This document shows positions 271 to 54,729 of a DNA stretch of 64,000 bases, in pieces. Where the stretch lies: contig OU342633.1 of the NCBI GenBank assembly GCA_910589415.1, forward strand, positions 39,128,210 to 39,192,209, written 5' to 3'. The notes beneath the pieces are model-generated. The model did not search any database and was not told the DNA's origin. It worked only from the letters and a program-made list of their open reading frames with translations. How positions within the stretch are numbered: the stretch's first letter is position 1; every line of letters starts with the position of its first letter. Made by a program: the position numbers and the translations under genes. Source of the stretch: Malachius bipustulatus (Eukaryota > Arthropoda > Insecta > Coleoptera > Melyridae).

Positions 271-3200
271 CTATAAAATTATATTTGAAGAGAATTGGAT
301 AAAACAATTAAAATAAAAATTTACCATTATCGTTCCCTTCAACAATACTGTAATGAATATTTCCATTAAGTCCGCTATCCAAATCACTGGCGTTTACTTG
401 CAAAATTGGCACTGGAGGATTTAATCTAATATTTTCCATAACAGTTACATTGTAGCTGCTTTGATTAAAAACAGGAGCATTATCGTTGATATCGTTTATC
501 TTAATATTGATTGGGACTGAAACGCTTCGTTTATTATTGCCCTTCCCTCCGTCACTTGCCACGACTTGTATGATCGTTCTGTTCAGTACTTCATGATCCA
601 AAAAATTCGAATTTCCAACGAATATATCACCAGTTGTGGGTGATATTACAAAATTCTCGCTGTGTTCACCAGTTAGACTGTAAGTAACCTCACCGAACTC
701 ACCCGAGTCCAAATCTTTTGCGAAAACACCAATAATTAACGTGCCGTTAGGTGCATTTTCATCTATACTTGTATTGTAAACGTCGTTACTAAATATCGGG
801 GAATTATCGTTAAGATTTACTACTTCAATGTTCACAGTTGCAGAAACATTCAATTGCGGAACTCCCGAATCGAAAGCGATCAAGATAAAACTTAGCTCCT
901 TTGTTTGCTCGTAATCGATCTGCTGCCTTATTTGTACGATACCGGTACCATGATTGACCGTGAAGTACGGATTTTCTGGTTCAATGATGTAGCTGCTGAT
1001 ATCGGAATCTTCATCTATCGCCTTGTAGGTGGCGACAATTGTACCAACGGGTTGCTCTTCTTTTAATTGAAGATAATAGTTCTGGTTGTCCGGAGTCCAG
1101 GGTGGCAGAAATATGGGCGGTGAATCGTTCACATCATTTATTGTAATCACCAGAAGACCTGAAAATTAATAAGGATTATGTTAAATCTGTAAAAATATTT
1201 CTTCTTTTTGGTTGTTGTCTCTTTTGTGATCTTGACACGATTTTAGGAGTCACCTAATTTTGTTGTACTTATTAGTTTTTAATAGTTTGGTTTTCTCTGT
1301 GATGTATGAAGGTCTGTTTTAATTAAAAGATCACAACGTAGGGGCAGACGATGTTCAGTTTAGTAGACAATAAATGTAATAAATAAAATAAAAATAGCAC
1401 GGTGGGTTCGGCTTTCGCCATAGGATGCAACCCCAGGCAGCTAAAACGCATGCCAACAACTGAGTGCAGTGCCTCCCGGTGTGCGTAAAGGTATGAAAGG
1501 CCTACTTCCAAAGTTTAACAAAAAGATGAACGACATATCGTAAAACGATACGTCATTCATTGATTTCATGCTGTGAGTCAGGGGTGGAAATTGTAGACAC
1601 GTGTTTCGTCCTAATTGGGACTCTTCAGTACAATGTATCTTGCTAACACACAGCACAATCTTAGTCACTTAATAGTGAGAAAAATGATAAAAATAAATAA
1701 AATAAAAATAGCACGGTGGGTTCGGCTTTCGCCATAGGATGCAACCCCAGGCAGCTAAAACGCATGCCAACAACTGAGTGCAGTGCCTCCCGGTGTGCGT
1801 AAAGGTAGGAAAGGCCTACTTCCAAAGTTTAACAAAAAGATGAACGACATATCGTAAAACGATACGTCATTCATTGATTTCATGCTGTGAGTCAGGGGTG
1901 GAAATTGTAGACACGTGTTTCGTCCTAATTGGGACTCTTCAGTACAATGTATCTTGCTAACACACAGCACAATCTTAGTCACTTAATAGTGAGAAAAATG
2001 ATAAAAATAAATAAAATAAAAATAGCACGGTGGGTTCGGCTTTCGCCATAGGATGCAACCCCAGGCAGCTAAAACGCATGCCAACAACTGAGTGCAGTGC
2101 CTCCCGGTGTGCGTAAAGGTAGGAAAGGCCTACTTCCAAAGTTTAACAAAAAGATGAACGACATATCGTAAAACGATACGTCATTCATTGATTTCATGCT
2201 GTGAGTCAGGGGTGGAAATTGTAGACACGTGTTTCGTCCTAATTGGGACTCTTCAGTACAATGTATCTTGCTAACACACAGCACAATCTTAGTCACTTAA
2301 TAGTGAGAAAAATGATAAAAATAAATAAAATAAAAATAGCACGGTGGGTTCGGCTTTCGCCATAGGATGCAACCCCAGGCAGCTAAAACGCATGCCAACA
2401 ACTGAGTGCAGTGCCTCCCGGTGTGCGTAAAGGTAGGAAAGGCCTACTTCCAAAGTTTAACAAAAAGATGAACGACATATCGTAAAACGATACGTCATTC
2501 ATTGATTTCATGCTGTGAGTCAGGGGTGGAAATTGTAGACACGTGTTTCGTCCTAATTGGGACTCTTCAGTACAATGTATCTTGCTAACACACAGCACAA
2601 TCTTAGTCACTTAGTTGTGCACTGCACTCAGTTGTTGGCATGCGTTTTAGCTGCCTGGGGTTGCATCCTATGGCGAAAGCCGAACCCACCGTGCTATTTT
2701 TATTTTATTTATTTTTATCATTTTTCTCACTATTAAGTGACTAAGATTGTGCTGTGTGTTAGCAAGATACATTGTACTGAAGAGTCCCAATTAGGACGAA
2801 ACACGTGTCTACAATTTCCACCCCTGACTCACAGCATGAAATCAATGAATGACGTATCGTTTTACGATATGTCGTTCATCTTTTTGTTAAACTTTGGAAG
2901 TAGGCCTTTCCTACCTTTACGCACACCGGGAGGCACTGCACTCAGTTGTTGGCATGCGTTTTAGCTGCCTGGGGTTGCATCCTATGGCGAAAGCCGAACC
3001 CACCGTGCTATTTTTATTTTATTTATTTTTATCATTTTTCTCACTATTAAGTGACTAAGATTGTGCTGTGTGTTAGCAAGATACATTGTACTGAAGAGTC
3101 CCAATTAGGACGAAACACGTGTCTACAATTTCCACCCCTGACTCACAGCATGAAATCAATGAATGACGTATCGTTTTACGATATGTCGTTCATCTTTTTG

Positions 3201-6200
3201 TTAAACTTTGGAAGTAGGCCTTTCCTACCTTTACGCACACCGGGAGGCACTGCACTCAGTTGTTGGCATGCGTTTTAGCTGCCTGGGGTTGCATCCTATG
3301 GCGAAAGCCGAACCCACCGTGCTATTTTTATTTTATTTATTTTTATCATTTTTCTCACTATTAAGTGACTAAGATTGTGCTGTGTGTTAGCAAGATACAT
3401 TGTACTGAAGAGTCCCAATTAGGACGAAACACGTGTCTACAATTTCCACCCCTGACTCACAGCATGAAATCAATGAATGACGTATCGTTTTACGATATGT
3501 CGTTCATCTTTTTGTTAAACTTTGGAAGTAGGCCTTTCCTACCTTTACGCACACCGGGAGGCACTGCACTCAGTTGTTGGCATGCGTTTTAGCTGCCTGG
3601 GGTTGCATCCTATGGCGAAAGCCGAACCCACCGTGCTATTTTTATTTTATTTATTTTTATCATTTTTCTCACTATTAAGTGACTAAGATTGTGCTGTGTG
3701 TTAGCAAGATACATTGTACTGAAGAGTCCCAATTAGGACGAAACACGTGTCTACAATTTCCACCCCTGACTCACAGCATGAAATCAATGAATGACGTATC
3801 GTTTTACGATATGTCGTTCATCTTTTTGTTAAACTTTGGAAGTAGGCCTTTCCTACCTTTACGCACACCGGGAGGCACTGCACTCAGTTGTTGGCATGCG
3901 TTTTAGCTGCCTGGGGTTGCATCCTATGGCGAAAGCCGAACCCACCGTGCTATTTTTATTTTATTTATTTTTATCATTTTTCTCACTATTAAGTGACTAA
4001 GATTGTGCTGTGTGTTAGCAAGATACATTGTACTGAAGAGTCCCAATTAGGACGAAACACGTGTCTACAATTTCCACCCCTGACTCACAGCATGAAATCA
4101 ATGAATGACGTATCGTTTTACGATATGTCGTTCATCTTTTTGTTAAACTTTGGAAGTAGGCCTTTCCTACCTTTACGCACACCGGGAGGCACTGCACTCA
4201 GTTGTTGGCATGCGTTTTAGCTGCCTGGGGTTGCATCCTATGGCGAAAGCCGAACCCACCGTGCTATTTTTATTTTATTTATTTTTATCATTTTTCTCAC
4301 TATTAAGTGACTAAGATTGTGCTGTGTGTTAGCAAGATACATTGTACTGAAGAGTCCCAATTAGGACGAAACACGTGTCTACAATTTCCACCCCTGACTC
4401 ACAGCATGAAATCAATGAATGACGTATCGTTTTACGATATGTCGTTCATCTTTTTGTTAAACTTTGGAAGTAGGCCTTTCCTACCTTTACGCACACCGGG
4501 AGGCACTGCACTCAGTTGTTGGCATGCGTTTTAGCTGCCTGGGGTTGCATCCTATGGCGAAAGCCGAACCCACCGTGCTATTTTTATTTTATTTATTTTT
4601 ATCATTTTTCTCACTATTAAGTGACTAAGATTGTGCTGTGTGTTAGCAAGATACATTGTACTGAAGAGTCCCAATTAGGACGAAACACGTGTCTACAATT
4701 TCCACCCCTGACTCACAGCATGAAATCAATGAATGACGTATCGTTTTACGATATGTCGTTCATCTTTTTGTTAAACTTTGGAAGTAGGCCTTTCCTACCT
4801 TTACGCACACCGGGAGGCACTGCACTCAGTTGTTGGCATGCGTTTTAGCTGCCTGGGGTTGCATCCTATGGCGAAAGCCGAACCCACCGTGCTATTTTTA
4901 TTTTATTTATTTTTATCATTTTTCTCACTATTAAGTGACTAAGATTGTGCTGTGTGTTAGCAAGATACATTGTACTGAAGAGTCCCAATTAGGACGAAAC
5001 ACGTGTCTACAATTTCCACCCCTGACTCACAGCATGAAATCAATGAATGACGTATCGTTTTACGATATGTCGTTCATCTTTTTGTTAAACTTTGGAAGTA
5101 GGCCTTTCCTACCTTTACGCACACCGGGAGGCACTGCACTCAGTTGTTGGCATGCGTTTTAGCTGCCTGGGGTTGCATCCTATGGCGAAAGCCGAACCCA
5201 CCGTGCTATTTTTATTTTATTTATTTTTATCATTTTTCTCACTATTAAGTGACTAAGATTGTGCTGTGTGTTAGCAAGATACATTGTACTGAAGAGTCCC
5301 AATTAGGACGAAACACGTGTCTACAATTTCCACCCCTGACTCACAGCATGAAATCAATGAATGACGTATCGTTTTACGATATGTCGTTCATCTTTTTGTT
5401 AAACTTTGGAAGTAGGCCTTTCCTACCTTTACGCACACCGGGAGGCACTGCACTCAGTTGTTGGCATGCGTTTTAGCTGCCTGGGGTTGCATCCTATGGC
5501 GAAAGCCGAACCCACCGTGCTATTTTTATTTTATTTATTTTTATCATTTTTCTCACTATTAAGTGACTAAGATTGTGCTGTGTGTTAGCAAGATACATTG
5601 TACTGAAGAGTCCCAATTAGGACGAAACACGTGTCTACAATTTCCACCCCTGACTCACAGCATGAAATCAATGAATGACGTATCGTTTTACGATATGTCG
5701 TTCATCTTTTTGTTAAACTTTGGAAGTAGGCCTTTCCTACCTTTACGCACACCGGGAGGCACTGCACTCAGTTGTTGGCATGCGTTTTAGCTGCCTGGGG
5801 TTGCATCCTATGGCGAAAGCCGAACCCACCGTGCTATTTTTATTTTATTTATTTTTATCATTTTTCTCACTATTAAGTGACTAAGATTGTGCTGTGTGTT
5901 AGCAAGATACATTGTACTGAAGAGTCCCAATTAGGACGAAACACGTGTCTACAATTTCCACCCCTGACTCACAGCATGAAATCAATGAATGACGTATCGT
6001 TTTACGATATGTCGTTCATCTTTTTGTTAAACTTTGGAAGTAGGCCTTTCCTACCTTTACGCACACCGGGAGGCACTGCACTCAGTTGTTGGCATGCGTT
6101 TTAGCTGCCTGGGGTTGCATCCTATGGCGAAAGCCGAACCCACCGTGCTATTTTTATTTTATTTATTTTTATCATTTTTCTCACTATTAAGTGACTAAGA

Positions 6201-9200
6201 TTGTGCTGTGTGTTAGCAAGATACATTGTACTGAAGAGTCCCAATTAGGACGAAACACGTGTCTACAATTTCCACCCCTGACTCACAGCATGAAATCAAT
6301 GAATGACGTATCGTTTTACGATATGTCGTTCATCTTTTTGTTAAACTTTGGAAGTAGGCCTTTCCTACCTTTACGCACACCGGGAGGCACTGCACTCAGT
6401 TGTTGGCATGCGTTTTAGCTGCCTGGGGTTGCATCCTATGGCGAAAGCCGAACCCACCGTGCTATTTTTATTTTATTTATTTTTATCATTTTTCTCACTA
6501 TTAAGTGACTAAGATTGTGCTGTGTGTTAGCAAGATACATTGTACTGAAGAGTCCCAATTAGGACGAAACACGTGTCTACAATTTCCACCCCTGACTCAC
6601 AGCATGAAATCAATGAATGACGTATCGTTTTACGATATGTCGTTCATCTTTTTGTTAAACTTTGGAAGTAGGCCTTTCCTACCTTTACGCACACCGGGAG
6701 GCACTGCACTCAGTTGTTGGCATGCGTTTTAGCTGCCTGGGGTTGCATCCTATGGCGAAAGCCGAACCCACCGTGCTATTTTTATTTTATTTATTTTTAT
6801 CATTTTTCTCACTATTAAGTGACTAAGATTGTGCTGTGTGTTAGCAAGATACATTGTACTGAAGAGTCCCAATTAGGACGAAACACGTGTCTACAATTTC
6901 CACCCCTGACTCACAGCATGAAATCAATGAATGACGTATCGTTTTACGATATGTCGTTCATCTTTTTGTTAAACTTTGGAAGTAGGCCTTTCCTACCTTT
7001 ACGCACACCGGGAGGCACTGCACTCAGTTGTTGGCATGCGTTTTAGCTGCCTGGGGTTGCATCCTATGGCGAAAGCCGAACCCACCGTGCTATTTTTATT
7101 TTATTTATTTTTATCATTTTTCTCACTATTAAGTGACTAAGATTGTGCTGTGTGTTAGCAAGATACATTGTACTGAAGAGTCCCAATTAGGACGAAACAC
7201 GTGTCTACAATTTCCACCCCTGACTCACAGCATGAAATCAATGAATGACGTATCGTTTTACGATATGTCGTTCATCTTTTTGTTAAACTTTGGAAGTAGG
7301 CCTTTCCTACCTTTACGCACACCGGGAGGCACTGCACTCAGTTGTTGGCATGCGTTTTAGCTGCCTGGGGTTGCATCCTATGGCGAAAGCCGAACCCACC
7401 GTGCTATTTTTATTTTATTTATTTTTATCATTTTTCTCACTATTAAGTGACTAAGATTGTGCTGTGTGTTAGCAAGATACATTGTACTGAAGAGTCCCAA
7501 TTAGGACGAAACACGTGTCTACAATTTCCACCCCTGACTCACAGCATGAAATCAATGAATGACGTATCGTTTTACGATATGTCGTTCATCTTTTTGTTAA
7601 ACTTTGGAAGTAGGCCTTTCCTACCTTTACGCACACCGGGAGGCACTGCACTCAGTTGTTGGCATGCGTTTTAGCTGCCTGGGGTTGCATCCTATGGCGA
7701 AAGCCGAACCCACCGTGCTATTTTTATTTTATTTATTTTTATCATTTTTCTCACTATTAAGTGACTAAGATTGTGCTGTGTGTTAGCAAGATACATTGTA
7801 CTGAAGAGTCCCAATTAGGACGAAACACGTGTCTACAATTTCCACCCCTGACTCACAGCATGAAATCAATGAATGACGTATCGTTTTACGATATGTCGTT
7901 CATCTTTTTGTTAAACTTTGGAAGTAGGCCTTTCCTACCTTTACGCACACCGGGAGGCACTGCACTCAGTTGTTGGCATGCGTTTTAGCTGCCTGGGGTT
8001 GCATCCTATGGCGAAAGCCGAACCCACCGTGCTATTTTTATTTTATTTATTTTTATCATTTTTCTCACTATTAACCCACACAGCAAAATCACGTTCCATA
8101 GACATATCAGATATATCTCGATTGAGAGATGGTATATCTCAGAAATATCTACAAATATACTTGAGACATAAATGAGATGTTTCAGAGATATCTTAATGTC
8201 CGCCTTTTAAACGTCTTTGAGACATTTTGTTGAGAGATCTCAGATATGTCTCAGATTATCTCCAAGATGTCTCAGCAACCTAACTTAAAGATCACAGAGA
8301 TATAAATATTTTTAGATGTCGCATCTCACATAATATAATCTGTGATGCAAATCGTAAAAAAGTGGAGAAGTATTTAAAGAATCACATCACTTGGGAATAA
8401 TAATAGGTAATAAAAATTTAAAATAATTTTTTTATGAAATTATTATAATTGAAATTAAAAAACATAAGATTTTTTATAGAATTATTAAAAAATTATAAAA
8501 AAAATTCTCATAATATAATATAATCTGCAGGTTTACCACTACATCAAAGCTATTTCTTGATCTTTTCCGTCTGTCCCGATTGGTCCATTTACTCTTTCTA
8601 ACCTCAATTTTGCCAGTCGAGCCAGTTCTTGTCGCCACTTCAGAAATTTCCAGATCAGTTGCCATTTCCTGACCTTTTTTACTATGACTGAATCTAAAAA
8701 AGATATAATAGATAAGATATATACTTAATAAAAGTACCTAGTTGACTCTTCCCTAAATATTCAAAAAAAGGCTAAATTTTGAAATTGAGGCCACGTGTGT
8801 AGCCAAAATTGTCGGTTAGGTTACCACGTTATCTAGAACACAAATTTGTAAACAAAATAAAAAATATACCTACTTGTTAAAAATAACACACTTACCTGTT
8901 TCCACAAAAGAATTTTTAATAATATAAATGTTAATTGTTTTAATAATATTAAAAGTGCTCACAACACAACACACAATAATGCACATTCCAAACACGCTTT
9001 GAGTCTTTTTGAGTCGAGAGCTTCCGCTTTGTTTCGACGACGACGGACGGATCAACGGAGACGAGCAATGAAATGAGTTGAGTAGTGGAATAGAAAGAGA
9101 AATAAAGTGGATGTGAGAAGCTACACATGCGCACAAATAAGACTCTTGCTTCTTCTCTTCCAAGAAGTTCTTTATTTTCGCATTGCGCATGCAGAAGTCT

Positions 9201-12200
9201 CTGATATATCTCTGAGACATTAAACCGCGCACTAATTAAACATTATAAATAAAATAATATTCCGCAAACATCTATAGAAGTATCAGATAATTTTTGAATA
9301 ATTTGGTAAAATTAGGTAATCTCTCAGAATATCTCAAAAACGCCGCAAAAGTTACGAGAATTTTATGCAAAATTTTATAAATCTCAGAGACATCTCAGGA
9401 ATATCTCAAAATAGATGAGATATTGTGATCAATATGAGACCTTTTTGAGATATATCTGAGATATTTGGTGTTGTGTGGGAAGTGACTAAGATTGTGCTGT
9501 GTGTTAGCAAGATACATTGTACTGAAGAGTCCCAATTAGGACGAAACACGTGTCTACAATTTCCACCCCTGACTCACAGCATGAAATCAATGAATGACGT
9601 ATCGTTTTACGATATGTCGTTCATCTTTTTGTTAATAAATGTAATACCAAATTTATAATTCTACCCTCTACTTATTACTTGTGATCAGAAATTTGTGCCA
9701 TTTTGCAGGGGGTATATTAAGTCATTTGCACTTTTTCATTCTGGTTTGGTTGCTAAACGAATCTGCAGACACCCGGATTGGAGCTAGAGAAAATAGAAAC
9801 CCTTTTTTTCATCGAATAGGAAAGTAGAGGTAACATCAGATGCAAATGATATTTGATCCAGGGATAGTTAATTGGATTAGAATTAGGGATTGAGGAGTTT
9901 TCACCCTATACGTAAGTGAAAAAACCCTTGACGCGAAAAACCACCCCTAGACAGGACTTGGTTACGGTTATTCTTATTTTACTTCTAATTCGTCATTCCC
10001 ACAAAACTTTTTCTTCTACTCCTCTCCCCTCTAGGAGAGCTGTTTGCCCTCACCCTATGGGTAACTAAGCCAGTTCATCCCAGAAAACTTCTACTCCTAT
10101 GAAGTATTCCAGGACAAAATATAATTTGTAGGTTTAAAAGGAATTTCCTAGAAAAAAGTCTACTTAGTGTGGACTATTATTACCAAGTTAAAAGTATTTA
10201 TTTTCATGTGTCTTTATATTTGGCTAACATTTAATTTGAATAAACTGTTCCAAGTCAAACATCCTTACTTGCAAAGTGTTTTCAAGTGTTTCAATATTAC
10301 TTGCACAAGTACCACATATTGAGTAGCCGGCTCTTACAATAATTATTAACTTATTAACGTATTAATGACGATTAAAATTAATCACCGTTAAGTAATATAG
10401 TTGTCAACTGATCTTGAAGTTCGAAAATATTAATTTGTCGAGTTAAAATGACTCACCTTTTCCTTGTTGTATTGTAGAGGCAGTAATATCAGTAACTACC
10501 ACAGTAATTCTTAACAATGCGGCTAAATCTCTTTCCAACGGTTTAACCAACGTAACTTTTCCGGTGTGTTTATCAATTTCAAACCATTCTTTATAAATAT
10601 CTGTGTGAAGCACCTGATTCCCGTTCTTATCTAGAGCTGTCACGGGATCGCTAGCCTCAAAATTGAGCGCCTCTGATGAATTAACATCGGGATCTAAAGC
10701 AACGAGTGTATGAACTACCGTACCTACTGGTGCATCTTCAAAAATCTAAAAAAAAATATTCATTCATATTACACCCTGTAGAATCCTGTTCGATAATATC
10801 CTTGACTTAAGTAAAATAAAAAAGTGATTATTTCATCAAAGCGCCGTGTCAAGCAAACTTACCTCAGTATTTTGTGTGGTAGGTGCAAAGTAAGGCAATT
10901 TATCATTAACGTTGACAACGTTAACAGTGAGAGTAGAAGTACCGGTTAGAGAAGGTTCACCATGATCTACCGCTACAACTTCAATGTTGTAAGTGTTACG
11001 TTTATCAAAATCCAATTTTTTTGCTACACTAATAATGCCGCTATTCTCTTCTATAGCGAAATCTTCATACGCTCCTTTCTGAATGCCATAAGACAAAAGA
11101 GAATTATTTCCAATATCCATATCAGTAGCTTGAAGCTGCACAATACTCGAACCTAAAAGAGGAACGTATTAACTAACAGATTACAGAAGAATATCAAAAG
11201 CATTAATTGATTTTATTATTGATTAGGTAACTTTTCTAATAATCCAATACTTACCTATATCGATATCTTCTGGCACTGAAACCACATAATTCTGGCGAGT
11301 AAAAGCTGGAACGTTATTATTAACGTCTTTAATTGTGATATTCACACTCGCCGTGGAAGTATATTTATTATCACTGGCCTAAAATATGATAAAAATTAAT
11401 CAAATTATCAATAACACTTCAATAATCTCACCATAACAGTCAGAACAATCGAATCGATAGTGCCATTACCGACACCCAATCCTGAATTATTTATAATCCT
11501 CAATTTTCCAGTGTTAGCGTCAATGGTAAATAATCCTTTATCGTTCCCGGCTATGATGGAGTAAGTTAAATGGGATGTTATGTCAGCATCTTTAGCGTCA
11601 ATTATTACGTCCGGTTCGAATCTAACCGCTCCTTCGTTAACTGACACACTGTACACGGGTTTTTTGAATACAGGAGGATTGTCGTTATTATCTGTCAGGG
11701 TTATATGTAACGGTACCATGGTAGTTTGACCTTTATCATTATCATCTGTCGCCTGGAATACAACATTTCTTAATCCTTAAAAGATCAGGTAGGTAATGAC
11801 ATAATACATCACAGATTGGTATTGTCTGTCATATTTTTCTTATACCAAAAGGGAACATGAATATATTCTATTAATATAATTTTTTTTTTTTTTTTTATAA
11901 ATAAATGATTAGGGAAAGTTTGTAGACCTTTTCATCTGTTGTAATTCAGATCATTTAACTGTAATTCAGAGAGTATAACATGTAATTGAGTCTTTTTGAG
12001 TCACACTTTCTGAATTACAATTGACTAATCTGAACTACACTGCTTTGTGAATTTCAATTCAATAATTTGAATTAGGTACAAGTTATATTATCTCAATTAC
12101 ATTTTTGTACGTTCTCAATTAAAACTGGAAAAGGTGTAGTTATTAACAAATTTATTTTAAGATAAATTTTACAATCCTGGTATGCATAATCTACCTTTTA

Positions 12201-52181: not shown

Positions 52182-52195
52182 ATCTATAGAGAAGA
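52182..52195. repeat. Left target-site duplication of the second insertion
   Basis: ATCTATAGAGAAGA, identical to 54716-54729. Confidence 0.88.
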
Positions 52196-52292
52196 CAAAA
52201 GGTGAACGACATATCGCAAAACAATATGCCATTCATTGATGTCATGCTGTGAGTCAGGGGTGGAAATTGTAGACACGTGTTTCGTCCTAATT

Positions 52293-54204
52293 ATAATAAT
52301 AATAATAATAATAATAATTTTATTAATAGGACTTGCCTATAAAACCCTCATACAAAATAATACAACAAAAAATAAAATACAAAATATACCTGCCGTCACT
52401 ATAGCACAATATCATCCGGCAATTCTACGTCATACCATATACGATATATATCTACATTCGAAAACTACTCTAATACTCTCACCTAACCCCACAACAGGCA
52501 CACAGCCTCCCATCCCCTTGTATACCCGTATACAAAACTTACATCTAGATACATTAAATTATCCATCACATATTATCTGCTCTCAAGTAGCTGTTTACTT
52601 TCGCTCTAAAGAGTCGAATATTCTCTACGTTTTTAATGTTTTCAGGCAAAGCATTATAAAGTCTCACGCCCTCATAAAACAAGCTCTTCTGCAGAGAGGC
52701 AGTCCTAACATATCGAATACTAAGTTCCTGACCAGCTCTAATATTGTACCCGTGCATATCCGCTCGTTTTTGGAGAAAAACACGGAGATACACAGGCAGC
52801 TGTCCCCGTTCAATTTTAAAGATCAATTCCATGTTAGCCCTTACTATAATCTGTTCGACAGTTAGCCACCTCAATTCATTGAGCATCTCCTTTATGGGAG
52901 TATATCTGCTACAGTTTAAGATTATACGCATTGCTTTACTCTGCTGTACCTGAAGTTTTCCAATTTTTTCTTTGGTACAAGCTATTAGTAATGATGAACA
53001 ATAAATAAAATGAGGCAAGATAATAGTGTTATAAACCAACCTTCTAGACCAGACAGATAAGTTCCTCGAAACTCTGTTAAAGAACCCAATCTTTTTGGCC
53101 ACCTTTTTGCACAAATAATCAATATGATTCGAGAAACTCAACTGCGCGTCCACCACGACACCCAGGTATCTGATCTCCGGAACCAATTCAATAGCTGATC
53201 CATTTATTTCAATGGATAAACCAGCCTCTTTGAACCTATTACAATTTACTTTAGTTCCAAATACTATACATTTAGTTTTATCTACATTTAGTTTTAATTT
53301 ATTTTTACAGATCCAGTCATATAGTATTTTCAATTCTTCATTTAGAATATTAGTAACTTCCTCGAACCGATCCCCAGAGACCGACACCAAGGCGTCATCA
53401 GCAAAAAGACTAACAAAAGACCTTTCAAGTGCCACACTAATATCATTTATATACACAATAAATAAGAGGGGTCCCAAGATGCTCCCCTGCGGTACACCCC
53501 ATAGACTTTCCCTACTCGCCGACAATTTATCACCTATTTTAGTCCTATGGTATCTACACTGCATATAATCCTTCAACCATTTCAAGACCACCGAACCAAC
53601 ACCATACATCTCCAATTTTTCAATAAGTATCTCCCGGTCTATTGTCTCAAACGCACGCTTTAGGTCCACAAATACACTGAGCACCACTTTTTCTTCATTA
53701 ATGTCCTGCCTCCATTTTGCTACCGCATACTGTAGAGCCGATTCGGTCGAATGTGAACTTCTGAATCCCGATTGTCCAACGTAAAGCAGCTGATTATCCT
53801 CGAAATATCGTTTCAACTGATAACATACTATTTGCTCGATTAGTTTATCTATTACCGGCATCAAGTTAATTGGACGAAACTCTGAATAGCTTTTTGGTTT
53901 GGAAACCTTTGGGATTGGTACTATCACGCTGGTCTTCAATTCTTCTGGTATTCTTCCAGTTTTTAGAGACGTATTTATTAAGTAAAGGAGGGGGTATCCG
54001 ATTACATGAAATAACTTTTTGACCAAATTGACACTCAATATATAGTCGCTGGTGCTTCTTGATTTCAAGCGACTCACTACCTTTCCCAGTTCTGAAAGAC
54101 TTACTTCTGCAAAGTCAGTAAAGTGGACACGGTTCACCTGATTTAATTTACAATCCCACGGTCTCTTTTCGATGCTGTTTGTGATCTCATTCAAACTCTC
54201 AGCG
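52293..54204 (-). mobile_element. 5'-truncated non-LTR retrotransposon with ATT-repeat tail
   Basis: Inserted in the stem II loop of a ribozyme unit, with AATT on both sides (52289-52292, 54205-54208) as the likely target duplication. The 3' end is an (ATT)n tail at 52293-52318. About 1.9 kb remains; the endonuclease and any ORF1 are missing. The open RT frame without stops shows that it is recent. Confidence 0.88.
52566..54204 (-). CDS. Reverse transcriptase of the truncated LINE (partial, no own start)
   Basis: About 545 uninterrupted codons. Seen in order: PIPKVSKPKSYSEFRPINL near the N-terminal side, then GQSGFRSSHSTESAL, VFVDLKRAFETIDREIL, WGVPQGSILGPLLFIVYIND, the catalytic FADDALV, KLKLNVDKTK and YLGVVVDAQLSFSNHI. 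The C-terminus ends with RLYNALPENIKNVENIRLF. This is a complete finger/palm set with the FADD active site. It copies its own RNA at a nicked target in known relatives (CR1/Jockey superfamily). The N-terminal endonuclease is gone, so it is not autonomous. Upstream the frame happens to read on into the ribozyme unit. The stop is at 52566. Confidence 0.88.
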
Positions 54205-54445
54205 AATTGGGACTCTTCAGTACAATGTATCTTGCTAACCCACAGTACAACCTTAGTCACTTAATCGTGAGAAAAATTATGAATGAAAAATACACGGTGG
54301 GTTCGGCTTGCGCCATAGGATGCAACCCCAGGCAGCCAAAACGCATGCCAACCACTGCCTGGGGTTGCATCCTATGGCGCAAGCCGAACCCACCGTGTAT
54401 TTTTTCATTCATCATTTTTCTCACTATTAAGTGACTAACGTTGTA

Positions 54446-54528
54446 CTGTGGGTTAGCAAGATACATTGTACTGAAGAGTCCCAATTAAGACGAAACACGT
54501 GTCTACAATTTCCACCCCTGACTCACAG
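54446..54528 (+). ncRNA. Hammerhead ribozyme, diverged plus copy of the second locus
   Basis: Core CUGAAGA, GAAA, the self-complementary stem III and the GUC site are kept; the cut would fall after 54503. Outer stem I is now CUGUGGGUUAG/CUGACUCACAG, with a G-U pair where the array copies have a U-U mismatch. The innermost pair of stem II is lost (GUCC against AGAC), so activity may be reduced. Confidence 0.82.
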
Positions 54529-54715
54529 CATGACATCAATGAATGGCATATTGTTTTGCGATATGTCGTTCACCTTTTGTCAAATTTTGGATAGTAGGCC
54601 TTCTCCTACCTTCACACACACCGGGAGGCACTGCACCCCGTTGTTGGCATGCGTTTTGGCTGCCTGAGGTTGCATCCTATGGCGCAAGCCGAACCCACCG
54701 TGTATTTTTTCATTC

Positions 54716-54729
54716 ATCTATAGAGAAGA
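54716..54729. repeat. Right target-site duplication of the second insertion
   Basis: ATCTATAGAGAAGA, identical to 52182-52195. The first three bases could also belong to the unit (CATTCATC). Confidence 0.88.

Follow-up and report, generated by a model that had tools for sequence, protein, structure and literature searches.

The 64,000-nt stretch of the Malachius bipustulatus genome analysed here (contig OU342633.1, positions 39,128,210 to 39,192,209; hereafter the window) carries an element whose type I hammerhead ribozyme, 314-nt non-coding tandem unit, long target duplications and compact predicted circle support its assignment to the animal-type retrozymes that lack long terminal repeats (non-LTR retrozymes). 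This retrozyme is probably a non-autonomous element, whose circular RNA is copied from both nicked strands of the target by the protein of a Penelope-like element (PLE). The observations behind this reading are the anatomy of the insertions, their starts at two fixed internal sites (A and B), the pairing of one A end with one B end, the target duplications, the likeness of the units within arrays and a matching insertion grammar of PLEs in the same genome.

The first insertion in the window, termed array 1, is composed of the following features, with unit positions numbered from the ribozyme cut.

1378-9635: array 1 as a whole, two arms arranged head-to-head, a single insertion between copies of AATAAATGTAATA
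1369-1381: left target-site duplication, 13 bp, AATAAATGTAATA, the final 4 bases of which match the element too
1378-2613, minus strand: minus arm, 3.9 laps of the 314-nt unit with 4 hammerheads (1590-2576), starting at unit position 218 (site A)
2614-2618: head-to-head junction of the arms, a filler of about 5 bases, by direct reading
2619-8074, plus strand: first part of the plus arm, 17.4 identical laps with 17 hammerheads
about 8075-9479: nested DNA transposon of 1.4 kb with terminal inverted repeats CCCACACAGC...GTTGTGTGGG, by direct reading
9480-9635, plus strand: remaining part of the plus arm with the 22nd hammerhead, starting at unit position 81 (site B)
9634-9646: right target-site duplication, 13 bp, AATAAATGTAATA, overlapping the element end by 2 bases

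The original prediction, made from the letters of the window, had described 1382..9633 as a tandem array of 22 intact hammerheads with a 314-bp period. Both the ribozymes and the period were borne out, as RF00163 (Hammerhead type I) was matched at 22 places in 1382-9633 with 53.5 bits each (Rfam; gathering score 34 bits), and Tandem Repeats Finder returned the 314-bp period in two blocks. However, the units do not form one direct array: the minus strand holds 4 ribozymes and the plus strand 18, and the two sets meet at about 2614-2618. Because the arms lie head-to-head, no single transcript has 22 sense ribozymes, and a read-through transcript would be a long inverted repeat. The eighteenth ribozyme on the plus strand (9516-9560) has been severed from the rest of its arm by the nested transposon. 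The boundaries were nearly right, with element-like sequence at 1378-9635 and duplications that overlap its ends by 4 and 2 bases. A 23rd ribozyme, at 54465-54509 (RF00163, 48.6 bits), is part of a second insertion. There is no difference among the 17 full units of the plus strand, and the minus arm differs by a single substitution, at 1494. In a control for the target duplications, none of 15117 random pairs of 30-base stretches from the window shared 12 or more bases.

The unit of array 1 is non-coding, has a GC content of 41.4% and contains all of the predicted hammerhead elements, namely the core motifs, stem II, the cleavage site GUC^U and a long two-part stem I. No open reading frame of at least 120 aa was found in the retrozyme units, and the only one in the array span (8870-9232) belongs to the nested transposon. 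The compact circular RNA proposed earlier agrees with folding, which gives the predicted circle an energy of -82.2 kcal/mol compared to -64.3 ± 4.6 kcal/mol for 100 shuffles. The assignment to the animal retrozyme layout, based on the type I hammerhead, the 314-nt non-coding unit of 41% GC and the tandem copies, is thereby upheld, with the long target duplications as an additional mark.

The second insertion, at 52196-54715, is shorter and interrupted by a long interspersed nuclear element (LINE).

52182-52195: left target-site duplication, 14 bp, ATCTATAGAGAAGA
52196-52292, minus strand: flank side of the minus arm, starting at site B (near unit position 78)
52293-54204, minus strand: 5'-truncated LINE with a (TAA)n tail, encoding a reverse transcriptase (PF00078) and sitting within the ribozyme of the insertion
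54205-54354, minus strand: head side of the minus arm
54355-54715, plus strand: plus arm of more than one lap with the hammerhead at 54465-54509, starting at about 218-223, near site A
54716-54729: right target-site duplication, 14 bp, ATCTATAGAGAAGA

Aligned over 231 columns, the two arms of this insertion show 4 differing positions and one indel. Their divergence from the 314-nt unit is about 5-7%, with an additional gap of about 12 nt; therefore both arms seem to derive from one template, of another subfamily than array 1. The LINE, with a 546-aa open stretch of reverse transcriptase, is separate from the retrozyme. A LINE-ribozyme chimera produced by template switching at 54.2 kb was considered and rejected, since the matching ribozyme piece lies across the LINE (52196-52292) and the LINE is located inside the ribozyme with a 4-bp AATT repeat. 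The window loci are thus two independent insertions with their own target duplications of 13 and 14 bp and with starts in the same two RNA regions. Both are head-to-head, such that the RNA 5' sides meet centrally and the 3' sides point toward the flanks.

The starts are at 218 and 81 in array 1 and near 78 and at about 218-223 in the second insertion; site A covers about unit positions 218-232, and site B lies about 79-81 nt downstream of the hammerhead cut. Folding of the window unit as a circle predicts that the 12 bases up to and including site A are 94% unpaired (rank 6 of 314), compared to 70% (rank 26) for the 12 bases that end at site B. Site A is also 72-87% unpaired in four related units; openness at site B is not general, because it is only 53-58% unpaired there (ranks 69-107). 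A hairpin of 15 bp ends about 10 nt 5' of site B, with most of its pairs kept over ten diverse copies; 4 of the 15 pairs are changed on both sides in at least one copy, and the covariation term is small (-0.7).

A ribozyme profile search of the 544-Mb assembly yielded 74 scored ribozymes from 73468 loose candidates, all 74 above the RF00163 cut-off, and an exact 35-base ribozyme pattern occurs 1238 times in the genome compared to none for the reversed control. All clusters among the scored hits were taken, giving 56 loci that amount to 58 insertions with the two window loci. Most of the 56 belong to a subfamily of about 320 nt that is some 78% identical to the window unit, and the other arrays have periods of 312-320 bp. 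Sites A and B (±8 nt) account for 70 of the 80 starts in these 56 insertions, against a uniform expectation of 10.7%; the ten others lie at 2, 36, 37, 42, 45, 69, 121, 207, 306 and 320. Four loci (L030, L031, L047 and L052) start at 36-45, about 40 nt before site B and near the tail spacing of PLEs, and a third start site at unit positions 36-45 is possible.

All 26 two-armed copies among the 58 insertions are head-to-head and none is tail-to-tail. Their ends comprise 20 AB, 1 AA, 0 BB, 4 with B and an unlabelled end and 1 with A and an unlabelled end, so that AB accounts for 20 of the 21 fully labelled copies; leaving out the window, the 24 remaining copies comprise 19 AB, 1 AA, 0 BB and 4 with one unlabelled end. 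In the other 32 of the 58, BLAST reveals a single arm (20 B, 6 A and 6 other). The first 100 of the 1238 pattern places, all on contig C1 and partly the same loci, form 60 neighbour pairs closer than 2.5 kb, of which 27 are plus-plus, 27 minus-minus, 6 head-to-head and none tail-to-tail.

Target duplications of at least 11 bp flank 22 of the 26 two-armed and 12 of the 32 one-armed copies (20 of 24 and 12 of 32, or 32 of 56 in total, without the window), and 26 of these 32 are 12 or 13 bp long. Shorter ones of 6-10 bp occur at 11 of the 58 insertions, and at 13 no duplication of at least 6 bp was found. When flanks of different loci were combined, 0 of 1000 reached 11 bp and 6 of 1000 reached 9 bp. 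The duplications of at least 11 bp are 80% AT, compared to 64% for the window. Of the 22 two-armed insertions that have them, array 1 and the second insertion included, most are copied from nearly the same A or B position, give or take a few bases, although their targets vary. The arrays are therefore not satellite DNA amplified locally without an insertion signature, as the copies are dispersed and 34 of 58 have such duplications. Later growth of a small insertion into satellite DNA through unequal exchange, with homogenisation of the units by the same process, would account for the likeness of units within arrays, and hammerhead repeats have been described as satellites in newts, schistosomes and cave crickets. 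We regard it as highly improbable, given that head-to-head structure and target duplications recur at dispersed loci, very short ones included, and that the window array and L051 have the same variants in their two arms.

Comparison of full units within and between loci further bears on the template. The 19 full units of the window array, taken from both arms, show no differing column in 171 pairs, and the nearest other locus differs at 86. At L051 the units of both arms differ by at most 2 columns among themselves and by at least 10 from other loci. L010 and L026 have no differing column within. Less uniform arrays are L012 (5), L050 (2-4) and L064 (2-11, with 8-11 between the arms), and several arrays have a period of their own (313, 316, 319 or 320). 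This likeness is consistent with one circle having been copied over and over, most clearly in the window array and L051. A PLE protein might instead have copied a long linear read-through transcript of an existing array, which we consider rather unlikely. The plus arm of array 1 runs for 17.9 laps without variation, array-specific variants and periods fit one circle recopied, and the canonical ribozyme in each unit should cut so long an RNA. A homogeneous source array would weaken this argument for a circle; L010, L050 and L064 are not discriminated by the comparison, because each is within 2 columns of another locus. In favour of the linear template, passages of PMC11167929 state that mutating the ribozyme of the PLE PAc left insertion unaffected and that the chief substrate in vitro seemed to be unprocessed RNA.

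The genome itself also contains PLEs. The GIY-YIG domain (PF01541) gave 150 scored hits from 775 candidates, often in tandem and in open frames of up to 921 aa, and neighbouring hits closer than 10 kb comprise 33 plus-plus, 14 minus-minus, 23 head-to-head and 2 opposite pairs. One protein carries both RVT_1 and GIY-YIG; among the 120 relatives listed for it, all 11 with a named organism are beetle proteins. On contig C11 (3382-82839), 24 GIY-YIG hits follow a period of about 3327 bp, 6 on the minus strand and then 18 on the plus strand, and 21 of them lie in 833-aa frames; the layout is as in the retrozyme array. A motif scan located a hammerhead-like core close to the arm ends; L065-L068 and L071 have it in both arms, L069 and L070 on a single strand. 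We take these motifs to be of the “minimal hammerhead” kind; Rfam at E up to 1 did not report those of L065 and L066, and their activity is putative. At L065, positions 512-1029 form a near-perfect palindrome of 518 bp with a hammerhead-like motif on each strand, which looks like a tiny non-autonomous PLE derivative.

Among 11 PLE insertions examined, 6 have one short and one tail arm, and the other 5 (L066 and L068-L071) do not have both ends readable. In the 823-aa family, the three insertions with both ends read all have 13-bp duplications, the only clear ones among the 11, together with one short and one tail arm that start at about +55 nt and +89 nt, respectively, from the inferred ribozyme cut. 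These duplications are the longest words common to both flanks and lie no more than a few bases from the arm ends. Direct reading of the arm ends of the 841-aa family revealed three insertions, targeted to (TA)n, that pair a short arm with a tail arm; in this family (L065, L066 and L076-L079) and in L068-L071, the ends lie in (TA)n or are damaged. The 823-aa family is the best candidate for the mover of the retrozyme because it combines AT-rich, non-microsatellite targets with 13-bp duplications. The retrozyme is not an autonomous PLE but only handled like one, as its units have no open reading frame for reverse transcriptase and GIY-YIG.

A LINE could also be the mover, the inverted arm resulting from ordinary twin priming on a circular template. 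Twin priming yields 5' inversions with target duplications, and LINEs are present in the genome, one of them inside the second insertion. However, the main arm of a twin-primed LINE starts at the 3' tail and the second arm wherever annealing is possible, and LINEs prefer to nick at TTTT/AA-like sites. The two retrozyme arms have fixed internal starts, one of type A and one of type B, and their ends show no poly(A) tail; nor does a TTTT/AA-like nick consensus emerge on either primer strand when the 22 target sites are aligned. In addition, PLEs of the same genome have the same start pairing, and one family the same duplication length. Although passages of PMC7229834 name LINEs or PLEs as possible movers, we judge a LINE improbable here.

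We propose that a PLE protein copies the retrozyme RNA as follows. Transcribed units would cut themselves at the hammerhead, and the cut units would be closed into a circle of about 314 nt. A PLE endonuclease/reverse-transcriptase complex would cut AT-rich DNA with a stagger of about 12-14 bp. Each of the two resulting 3' ends would serve as primer for reverse transcription of the circle, one at site A and the other at site B, both internal. Circling the RNA from part of a lap to many laps, the enzyme would generate two arms, the heads of which would then be joined. The outcome would be one insertion with a target duplication, head-to-head arms, and one A and one B end. The involvement of a PLE protein and a circle is deduced from the match to PLE grammar of an element that neither codes for protein nor shares sequence with the fetched PLE loci.

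Several points weigh against this proposal. Self-cleavage, circularisation and the identity of the enzyme, PLE involvement included, are what we infer from sequence. The retrozyme and seven PLE loci, start sites included, have only low-complexity matches in common. The distance between the two starts is about 33 nt in the 823-aa PLE, compared to about 140-150 nt in the retrozyme (or about 170 nt the other way round the circle), and the 841-aa family, in contrast to the retrozyme, targets (TA)n repeats. At 36 of the 44 junctions of the 22 two-armed insertions there is an overlap of at least one base between target and element, which suggests some base pairing at the start, whereas passages of PMC11167929 describe the start site of PAc as not homologous to the cut DNA. 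Among the 58 insertions, 24 have no duplication of at least 11 bp and 32 look one-armed, and 11 of 84 starts lie at neither site. The 56 loci were chosen from high-scoring ribozymes, 41 of them on contig C1, and this choice disfavours AA copies because only copies with a ribozyme can be seen. Sites A and B were delimited after the data had been inspected, though both sites were first read from the two window loci, and the 13-bp duplications of the PLEs stand without a formal control.

We give an even chance to the further idea that the PLE protein is a paired machine acting on hammerhead-made circles, in which two subunits prime from the two nicked strands at two fixed RNA sites. If so, retrozymes would be to PLEs as short interspersed nuclear elements are to LINEs, and tandem head-to-head PLE arrays such as that on contig C11 would come from PLE circles made by the hammerhead. 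Such circles would therefore explain why PLEs keep a ribozyme and pseudo-LTRs.

As to the surroundings of array 1, cadherin-repeat exons lie on either side of it on the minus strand (308-1150 and 10443-11776), and the array therefore seems to be intronic in a cadherin gene. The four minus-strand ribozymes share the sense orientation of this gene and could cut the cadherin pre-mRNA, and the plus arm would pair with them into a long hairpin. The DNA transposon at 8075-9479, with an apparent 2-bp AA duplication and AGATATCTC-like repeats inside, is a later insertion separate from the retrozyme. Rfam matches to miRNAs, Wolbachia sRNAs and CRISPR repeats, several of them at inverted junctions, are below the gathering score and were taken as chance hits on long hairpins. 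No exact pattern match of the retrozyme was found in collections of viral and prokaryote contigs, from which records close to the genome of the window may be missing, so that this says little.

Head-to-head retrozymes or fixed paired starts were not described in the parts of the literature covered, and the word “inverted” does not occur in the main text of PMC7229834. The family itself is apparently undescribed, as the original prediction held and as literature searches agree. In the parts of Cervera and de la Pena (2020, PMC7229834) that deal with them, animal non-LTR retrozymes share the type I hammerhead, a non-coding tandem unit of about 170-400 nt with a GC content below 45%, target duplications longer than 4 bp and a predicted self-paired circle; the present element differs from that account in its head-to-head arms, two fixed internal starts and A/B pairing. 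The mover of animal retrozymes is left open there, with PLEs as a strong candidate. Endonuclease-bearing PLEs, as far as passages of PMC3846280 and PMC11167929 describe them, resemble the retrozyme in having arms most often head-to-head, short target duplications (8-10 bp), a hammerhead upstream of the start, two alternative internal starts and an extra “tail” on one arm. They differ in coding for reverse transcriptase and GIY-YIG, in hammerheads of a minimal form and in starts only about 30-40 nt apart. For PAc, the in vitro work in PMC11167929 reports, in its relevant passages, that both strands are cut and extended and that there are two internal start sites; by our arithmetic (111-118 minus 26), the main one lies 85-92 nt past the ribozyme cut.

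Plant LTR retrozymes, as presented in portions of PMC4918200 and PMC7229834, likewise rely on a hammerhead-cut circular RNA copied by the enzyme of another element, but they have type III hammerheads, LTRs, circles of 600-800 nt, 4-bp duplications and a Gypsy mover (PMC7229834). The pDo500 satellite of Dolichopoda crickets, compared here by its description in passages of PMC2837043, is also an insect tandem repeat with a hammerhead and is treated as satellite DNA. Altogether, retrozymes and PLEs are already known, and what is new is the insertion grammar, which links the retrozyme to PLEs by several marks in one genome, names two RNA positions, and is relevant to the presence of hammerheads in PLEs and to their inverted tandem copies.

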